The position numbers and the translations under genes were made by a program. 64,000 nucleotides of DNA from Bacteroidales bacterium. Its GTDB lineage: Bacteria; Bacteroidota; Bacteroidia; Bacteroidales; UBA932. This document shows, piece after piece, positions 49,048 through 63,804 of the stretch (positions are counted from its first letter, which is position 1; each line of letters begins with the position of its first letter). The DNA lies in contig SUYP01000002.1 in NCBI GenBank assembly GCA_015060395.1, positions 87,074 through 151,073 of the forward strand, in the 5' to 3' direction. A model generated the notes under the pieces. The model did no database searches and was not told where the DNA came from. It was given only the letters and a program-made list of their open reading frames with translations.

Positions 49048-49093
49048 TTATGCGAGATGCCTGCTGTCAAAGTACAGCAGGCATCTCGCATAA
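49048..49093. terminator. Perfect 20-bp hairpin, bidirectional terminator candidate between convergent genes
   Basis: TTATGCGAGATGCCTGCTGT-CAAAGT-ACAGCAGGCATCTCGCATAA. Confidence 0.65.
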
Positions 49094-61069: not shown

Positions 61070-62386
61070 ATGAAGACAATAATATACAATATAGGGACAT
61101 TGGCGGGGATACTGCCGGAGGGAGTCCTGAAGCTGGAGGGCGAGGAGATGAAGCAGGTGGAGTGCATCGAGGATGCGTATCTGGTGATCGAGGATGGGGT
61201 TATCTCCGAATTCGGGGAGGCTTCCGGACACTGTTGTACCGGAGACAACCCCTCCCGCTTCGCGGGTCCCTCCCCCTGCGGCCAGGGGGGTAGCACGGTC
61301 TCCGGTACAACAGTGTCCGGAAGCTGCGAGCCAAAGATTGAGTATATAGACGCGAAGGGAGGATTTGTGCTGCCTTGTTTCTGCGACAGCCATACGCATA
61401 TAGTTTATGCCGGATGCCGTGACGGAGAGTTCCGAGACAAGATTGCAGGACTGAGCTATGAAGAGATTGCGGCACGAGGAGGCGGAATCCTGAATTCGGC
61501 CGATCTTCTTCACAACACTTCAGAGGATGAGCTTTACAGGCAGTCGATGGAGAGAGTGAACGAGATTATGGCTATGGGTACCGGAGCTGTGGAGATCAAG
61601 AGCGGCTACGGACTGACCGTCGAAGATGAGCTGAAGATGCTCAGAGTCATAAAGAGGATCAAGGAGACAGCACCAATCACCGTGAAGGCGAATTTCCTTG
61701 GCGCGCACGCTGTAGGCAGGGCATATAGAGGACGTCAGAGCGAGTATGTAGATCTGGTCTGCGACGAAATGCTCCCGAAAGTGGCAGAAGAAGGCCTTGC
61801 AGACTTCGTTGACGTGTTCTGCGACACTGGGTTCTTCACAGTGGAAGAAACGGCCAGAATCCTCGAAAAAGCAGCAAAATACGGCATTCGTCCGAAGATC
61901 CACGCAAACGAGCTGGAGGTTTCCGGCGGAGTGCAGGTGGGAGTGAAATATGACGCGCTTTCCGTGGACCATCTGGAGAAGACTACGGATGCCGAGATAG
62001 AGGCTCTGCGTGGAAGCGGCACAATGCCTACGATGCTTCCGGGATGCTCGTTCTTCCTCGGACTGCCATACGGAAGGGCAAAGGATTATATCGAGGCCGG
62101 ACTTCCTGTGGCACTGGCATCAGACTACAACCCAGGATCAAGCCCTAGCGGAAATATGCGCTTCGTGATGGCTCTGGGATGCATCAAGATGCGTCTCACA
62201 CCAGAGCAGTCCCTCAATGCCTGCACCATCAACTCCGCATACGCAATGGGAGTCAGCGACATCCTTGGCTCGATTACGGTCGGCAAGAAAGCCAACCTCA
62301 TCATCACAAAGCCGGTTCCGTCTCTAGCCTTCATTCCTTACAGCCACCAGACACCGGTGATTGAGAGGGTTATCATCTCAGAATAA
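61070..62386 (+). CDS. hutI: Imidazolonepropionase carrying an in-frame 35-codon insertion
   Basis: CDSHTHIVYAGCRDGEF, GAVEIKSGYGLT, FLGAHAV, IHANELEVSGGV, ASDYNPGSSPSGNM; extra residues ASGHCCTGDNPSRFAGPSPCGQGGSTVSGTTVSGS near residue 50. Confidence 0.95.
   Translation: MKTIIYNIGTLAGILPEGVLKLEGEEMKQVECIEDAYLVIEDGVISEFGEASGHCCTGDNPSRFAGPSPCGQGGSTVSGTTVSGSCEPKIEYIDAKGGFVLPCFCDSHTHIVYAGCRDGEFRDKIAGLSYEEIAARGGGILNSADLLHNTSEDELYRQSMERVNEIMAMGTGAVEIKSGYGLTVEDELKMLRVIKRIKETAPITVKANFLGAHAVGRAYRGRQSEYVDLVCDEMLPKVAEEGLADFVDVFCDTGFFTVEETARILEKAAKYGIRPKIHANELEVSGGVQVGVKYDALSVDHLEKTTDAEIEALRGSGTMPTMLPGCSFFLGLPYGRAKDYIEAGLPVALASDYNPGSSPSGNMRFVMALGCIKMRLTPEQSLNACTINSAYAMGVSDILGSITVGKKANLIITKPVPSLAFIPYSHQTPVIERVIISE
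61220..61324. repeat. In-frame palindromic element inside hutI (perfect 27-bp inverted repeat plus two internal hairpins)
   Basis: GCTTCCGGACACTGTTGTACCGGAGAC (61220-61246) and its exact reverse complement (61298-61324); internal CCCGC-TTC-GCGGG (61254-61266) and CCCCCT-GCGGCC-AGGGGG (61272-61289). 105 nt = 35 codons, aligned to codon boundary. Confidence 0.95.
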
Positions 62387-62868: not shown

Positions 62869-63804
62869 ATGAGCGACATCAAAATTCTGACTTTCTTTGA
62901 CAAAGAAAGGATATGTGAAGAGAGATTTCGGAGGGCAGGCCAGTTCTGGCACCTATATTCTGACGGGACAGTTATGGAGAACATCTTCTTGAATGATACT
63001 GAAATGAAGGCAGGCCTATCAATCTTGGCGGCTTCGGTACAGATGGTCAAACCAGATATAAGACTGGTGACTTTCGCCTTGATGAAGAATCACATTCACC
63101 TTATACTATGCGGGCATCGCGAAAAATGTCTGCAGTTGTTCGACATCTTTAAAGACAAGATGAGAAGGATATTCAGGAAAACAATCAGAGGTATCGATTG
63201 GAAAAGATTCAACGCCAAGATTCTTCCTATAGATTCGCTCAAGGCATTGAGGAATGAAATCATCTATGTGCATCGTAATCCATTTGTCGCGAATCCTGAC
63301 CAAACTCCTTACGGTTATCCTTGGAGCGGGGGATGTGCATACTTCAATCCCCTGATATACGATATCGGAACGGACGACATCCGTTCATTCAGTTTCGACA
63401 GACAGAGAAAGCTGACATACAGCCGGAACATCAGTCCTATGGGCGGATTGAAATTCGCGGGGGATAAGGTTTTCATTCCGTCATTCTGCGACATAGGTCT
63501 GGGAGAAGGGATGTTCACAGATGCCCGAAGCTACTTCCTGCTTCTCACGCGAAATGCAGAGGCATATAGCCAGATTGCGACAAGGCTGGAAGATAAGATA
63601 TTCCTTACTGACGATGAGATGTTCATTACAGCGGTACATCTTGCTGAAAAAGCATACCATACAAGCAAGATCACTACTCTGTCCCCAGAGCAGAAAGTCA
63701 AGCTGGCCAAAGACCTTCATTTCAAATACAAGGCATCCAAACAGCAGGTGAGAAGGATTCTGAGACTTGAAAATACGGTTCTGGACGAACTGTTTCCGAT
63801 ATAG
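62869..63804 (+). mobile_element. IS200-like / REP-associated tyrosine (RAYT-type) HUH transposase family protein
   Basis: ALMKNHIHLILCG (HUH) and RNEIIYVHRNPFVANPDQTPYGYPWSG (Y1 tyrosine region with the RAYT-like YxHxNP...Y.WSG pattern). Confidence 0.8.

Follow-up and report, generated by a model that had tools for sequence, protein, structure and literature searches.

A palindromic repeat in hutI and other core genes of gut Bacteroidales, with arms that change together and a core that inverts

Rickettsia palindromic elements (RPEs) are palindromes of ~100-150 bp found in frame in metabolic genes that are unrelated to one another, and their translation is predicted (PMC10969869, PMC3733652); those of R. 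conorii carry a terminal CGTC tag (PMC3733652). Template switching homogenises arms and inverts spacers within coding genes (PMC8604942), and it also creates and maintains hairpins (PMC8794818). Nematomorpha mitochondria have long perfect inverted repeats in coding sequence, for the upkeep of which template switching is proposed (PMC6649704). The window, a stretch of 64,000 nucleotides from a Bacteroidales bacterium, contains a palindrome inside the hutI gene.

The palindrome in hutI and its family

The element, its host gene and a gene downstream of it have the following coordinates in the window.

61070..62386, + strand: hutI ORF, imidazolonepropionase, 438 aa, of which the element is residues 51-85
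61220..61246, + strand: 5' arm of the palindrome, 27 nt, GCTTCCGGACACTGTTGTACCGGAGAC; locus-specific, with an orthologous arm that has compensated differences in locus L141
61247..61297, - strand: core, 51 bp, conserved from locus to locus and, here, in standard orientation (CGTGCTACCCC...GGGGTT) when read on the - strand
61254..61266, no strand assigned: first small core hairpin, CCCGCTTCGCGGG, whose stem varies among copies with complementary changes
61272..61289, no strand assigned: second core hairpin, CCCCCTGCGGCCAGGGGG, followed by GTAG at 61290-61293
61298..61324, + strand: 3' arm of the palindrome, 27 nt, exact reverse complement of 61220-61246
62869-63804, + strand: RAYT-like HUH protein ORF with an NHIHLIL motif (NF047646, E 0.0033, below cut-off)

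HutI is identified by NCBIfam TIGR01224 (E 2.9e-118), in a match that begins at residue 88. The element starts on a codon boundary 150 nt past the hutI ATG and is 35 codons long, without a stop in the hutI frame; read in six frames, it has TAG in one. When the whole window is modelled by 15 order-1 Markov surrogates, chance gives a longest perfect arm of 11-13 nt. A sequence-only reading had described a perfect 27-bp inverted repeat round a 51-bp GC-rich core with two small hairpins, in a stop-free 105-nt unit of 35 codons in the hutI frame, and this is borne out by the exact complementarity of the arms, by surrogates that do not exceed 13 nt, by both hairpins and by the ORF at 61070-62386. 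An assembly artefact, which that reading had raised as an objection, is a very unlikely source of the inverted repeat on sequence comparison, because the element occupies one and the same position in independent MAGs, where its arm differences are compensated. Elsewhere in the window, a perfect inverted repeat at 49048-49093, with 20-bp arms and a 6-nt loop, is terminator-like.

Structural modelling had been proposed to see whether the insert is a loop. AlphaFold models of 21 HutI sequences have segments with pLDDT <50 at residues 54-86 only, and the insert falls in this predicted disordered stretch, as expected if HutI keeps an intact fold with a disordered loop beside it. The peptide, whose translation is predicted, would be a disordered surface loop tolerated by the enzyme. 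This suggests that repeat DNA which does no more than stay open may be a source of disordered loops in enzymes.

When 85,462 species genomes are scanned with GTGCTACCNNNCTGGCCGCAG, 112 stretches match; almost all come from herbivore-gut Bacteroidales MAGs, and none of the loci is from Rickettsia. Removal of duplicates and chance matches leaves ~105 distinct copies. The search pattern fixes part of the core, including CTGGCCGCAG, the invariant middle of the second hairpin, so that the conservation of this part is partly by construction and diverged copies are under-counted. The window's own genome has five copies including that of hutI, and the four others match it in the core only, each with its own inverted repeat, which is unrelated to the others and decayed in L002/L007. 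In the own genus, 27 of 300 genomes have a match, with 1 to 7 copies each. Another genus of the same family has three genomes with 4-5 copies each; in the other genus (g13), four copies have arm sequence in common and their flanks also look alike. The earlier reading had likened the in-frame palindrome of hutI to the Rickettsia elements, and the ~105 copies speak for a dispersed repeat of that sort, in hutI as well as in other core genes. It had also suggested a search of the host genome and other Bacteroidales for the unit, in which the core, not the arms, proves to recur.

The conserved layout of the core is GTGCTACCCC-hairpin-hairpin-GGGGTT, with two subtypes, CCCCT...GAGG...GGGATT and CCCCC...GGGG...GGGGTT. 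Extended cores of ~85-104 nt also occur, many of them with a third hairpin, such as GTGAGCATCCAGTGGATGCTCAC between TCGTGAGCG and GCGAGCAGCC. ORFs stay open for at least 60 nt past both element ends in 77 of 108 copies, in several reading frames, although some short ORFs among the 77 may be chance. The clear host genes are hutI, lpxB, aroE, miaA, truB, tilS, folC, aroK and an M20 peptidase gene, named from their own sequence, with only HutI matched to a family library; copies are also found in intergenic DNA. Core lengths divisible by three are found in 52 of 61 coding copies vs 12 of 27 noncoding ones. Strong selection of the core for open frames is rejected, the excess being modest (459 vs 418 of 600 frames).

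Rfam gives two matches only, both far below gathering scores, and the element is not a known RNA family. The open literature, as searched, contains no description of the element family, and prior description elsewhere is possible. A phage origin is rejected, with no phage match and two viral contig matches that look like chance, having neither arms nor core. A plasmid origin is likewise rejected, the plasmid match being a 25-nt GC-rich stretch in Azospirillum. These Azospirillum plasmids (L334-L336) have GC-rich hairpin repeats with 25 nt identical to the core (CCCTCCCGCTTCGCGGGTCCCTCC).

Arms, core orientation and insertion sites

The arms are ~25-28 bp long and perfect or near-perfect at each site; their pairing is ~78-97% over the 25 positions beside the core and reaches the chance level by position 31. 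Their sequence differs between sites and between orthologues, and what they have in common is slight: RAAA[CG] adjoins the core, and GG tends to occur at positions 11/12 and 20/21. Among orthologous hutI genes the mean arm identity is 52% (minimum 29%) and 97% of arm positions pair. Arm differences between these orthologues are compensated at 91% vs 11% with 3' arms shuffled, and the corresponding values are 70 vs 11 for aroE, 78 vs 12 for M20 and 78 vs 14 for lpxB, in pairwise counts that are not phylogenetically independent. The miaA arms follow the same pattern, and compensation is seen at six gene loci, of which truB is represented by four copies only.

Both halves of the behaviour of template-switch-maintained repeats are found here: the arms are homogenised at these six loci, and the spacer is inverted within intact arms. 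In L141, the window's arms, with their differences compensated, surround a flipped core, which is 48/51 identical to the window's when inverted and 17/51 directly; the core orientation in the window's hutI is thus opposite to that in L141. Both orientations occur at five of the six gene loci (hutI, lpxB, aroE, M20 and truB), and they are mixed within the filled clade of the hutI tree. Each locus has a constant base pair closing the arms; the single exception, in aroE, is a shifted arm boundary. Core changes within the arms are also possible, because the M20 copies of G379 and G274 have similar arms and cores of unlike size (57 vs 99). A fixed repeat with conserved terminal repeats is rejected, since arm sequence changes from site to site.

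The hutI tree places every filled copy in one clade (100/99), and 17 of 17 rows outside that clade are empty. Same-genus outgroups are without the insert. The objection that HutI orthologues might carry a homologous segment lacking the palindrome does not hold. Sites without the core also occur within the carrier clade, and partial remnants of the element are found in several relatives. The tree fits a single insertion in hutI, followed by repeated inversions and losses. The hutI loop of relatives is length-variable, and a few relatives carry other insert-like sequence. The same loops elsewhere read through other repeat-looking inserts, in L147 and L167 (hutI), L047 (tilS) and L238 and L239 (M20), examples being SFADAQDD, RHSGLDPES, HCEERSDVAI and VIPDLIGDP. 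In L227 (lpxB of G042), three successive ~35-aa units, each starting with the 3' arm (LKTSIDTYADD...), adjoin the element.

The net gain in HutI is probably the core plus one arm, ~26 residues and not all 35, because the native loop measures 12-17 aa in relatives, and the filled loop has 6-9 aa once the element is subtracted. Addition of one arm to these 6-9 aa gives 13-18 aa in most copies, which matches the native 12-17. For aroE, 5 of 7 copies have 12-16 aa of loop outside the element and 21-25 with one arm added, and this sum matches the short empty loops of 19-26 aa; the outgroup search at this gene delimited almost no loops with the motif used. In the closest aroE pair, the filled L060/L257 and the empty L269/L280 are 89% identical downstream, and the empty aroE retains the 5' arm (GACGAGTCATCTGACGAGGCGCAAAG versus GCCGAGTCATCTGACGAGGCTAAAAG) without core and 3' arm. 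Since other species have a filled aroE, the empty state here may be due to deletion, and it is the loop-length argument that suggests a native 5' arm. Together, hutI and aroE suggest that one arm may be native host sequence and the other its inverted copy. At lpxB, M20 and miaA, the outside part alone is mostly at or above the native loop length. The proposal of 35 extra, foreign residues therefore stands as to an extra insert in HutI and is otherwise too simple, since the arms are locus-specific and co-evolving, the core flips and one hutI arm is probably native. The palindromic unit likewise remains a repeat, though not one with arms of fixed sequence.

Explanations for the paired arms and the inverting core

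With a probability of roughly 0.6, the element is a predicted translated palindromic repeat, selfish or near-neutral, whose arms and core orientation would be rewritten by replication template switching. It would reside in protein loops and at gene borders, and persist in genes where it is in frame. At the replication fork, the nascent strand would switch template between the arms and rewrite one from the other, which would keep the arms perfect, and the same switch would sometimes turn the spacer round; template switching would thus account for both the concerted arms and the core inversion. Spacer inversions published for this process span a few bases, whereas ~50-100 would be turned here. 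Insertion is less sure. Starting from AAAAC or AAAAG, a 3' end might copy a donor core, after which the strand would fold back and copy its own flank, so that one arm would be host sequence; aroE and hutI agree with this scheme, and lpxB, M20 and miaA have both arms extra.

A related and more tentative explanation is that a mobile core makes its own inverted repeat at each target, with ~26 nt of adjacent host DNA copied in reverse as an inverted target duplication, and that replication then maintains and flips the palindrome. If true, the target would be duplicated in a way that differs from the direct duplications of transposons. It is supported at two genes, aroE and hutI, and not at lpxB, M20 and miaA, where both arms appear to be gained, so a universal inverted target duplication is not supported.

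It is possible, though doubtful, that the element is of REP/MITE type; its movement would then depend in trans on a RAYT-like HUH transposase, for which ORF 62869-63804 is a candidate, and the arms would be diverged terminal repeats. The RAYT-like gene is ~1.5 kb downstream of the element, its subfamily (~46-54% identity) is commoner in carriers, being among the matches listed for 17 of the 25 own-genus carriers searched and for the coreless G188, GTAG adjoins a core hairpin and the g13 copies have arms in common. Eight carriers, however, are without that subfamily at the listed level, some of their genomes being incomplete, and the association is confounded by descent, because the carriers form one clade. 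Within ~500 bp of RAYT-like genes at six loci there is no core, apart from one 8-10 nt core-like match in L341, and a different conserved flank is present there. A conserved stretch, TTCTGGTTCGCCATCCACGATCAAATGGCA, is upstream of the RAYT-like gene of the window and also beside related genes in L338, L340 and L342. GTAG-tagged REPs have an unpaired terminal GTAG beside a short stem, and the GTAG at 61290-61293 is inside the palindrome, 3' of the hairpin. MITEs have conserved terminal inverted repeats and the arms here are locus-specific; the direct target duplication of MITEs is not apparent in the closest filled/empty pair.

Compensated arm changes could also be explained by selection on a hairpin. 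Natural selection, and not a mutational process, would then keep the arms complementary in mRNA or DNA for RNA stability, ribosome pausing or a protein-binding site. The strength of the compensation agrees with this, as do the complementary changes in the internal core hairpin stem and the weak common positions 1-5, 11/12 and 20/21, ~one helical turn apart. Such selection is nonetheless unlikely as the explanation: the pattern spans unrelated genes, intergenic DNA and both core orientations, which leaves no common function, decayed arms or cores (L007, L049, L065) are found in genes that are still open, and core inversion is unexplained by selection alone.

Repeated independent insertions into the same permissive loops in each species, as opposed to one old insertion per gene with arm co-evolution, are less probable still. 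Coreless sites inside the carrier clade and the miaA of G173, with one full copy and one remnant, would agree with them. Against them are the arm-closing base pair fixed per locus, the restriction of filled hutI copies to one clade, the orthologous arms common to the window and L141 and the partial remnants in several relatives. At the G173 locus (L313), the loop with the full copy also holds what is left of another element (GAAAAGCGTGCTACCCCTGTTCTTTTC), a near-complete deletion remnant.

The core could also be an inverton on whose arms a site-specific recombinase acts, and which serves regulation or protein diversification, but this is very unlikely. Inverted repeats do bound an invertible segment here, and invertons are common in Bacteroidales (PMC11892184). 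Against this reading, the core is open in either orientation in hutI, lpxB, aroE and M20, and one recombinase would find little common sequence to recognise, because the arms are unlike at each site.

Comparison with known systems

Translated palindromic insertions, best known from Rickettsia, would be extended by these sequences to gut Bacteroidales. With ~100 copies, many of which lie in core metabolic genes, nature has replicated arm homogenisation and core inversion, which makes the template-switch model of palindrome upkeep directly testable. Since the arms change together and the centre flips, the element is a natural test of how mirror repeats stay perfect.

Among described systems, template-switch quasi-palindromes of yeast genes, rRNA and microRNA share arm homogenisation and spacer inversion in coding sequence (PMC8604942, PMC8794818). 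While these are ordinary local sequences with few-base spacers, the spacer here is a dispersed conserved core of ~50-100 bp. In Nematomorpha palindromes, both arms encode conserved residues, and no common mobile core is described in the accessible part of that source (PMC6649704). GTAG-/CGTC-tagged REPs with RAYTs share short hairpins, a GTAG motif, some intragenic copies and a RAYT-like gene in the genome (PMC3733652); unlike them, the element has long private arms and few copies per genome, and is not found flanking RAYT genes. Like RPEs, it is an in-frame palindromic repeat in protein genes, predicted to be translated, with truB as a host in both. Unlike RPEs, its cores start with CGTGCTACC and end with GGG[AG]T[TC], with no conserved CGTC at either end, and it probably also differs in arms that vary between copies and co-evolve and in a core that inverts. 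The element acts like Rickettsia palindromic elements but appears not to be one, and it is best classed with in-frame palindromic repeats, as a new variant.
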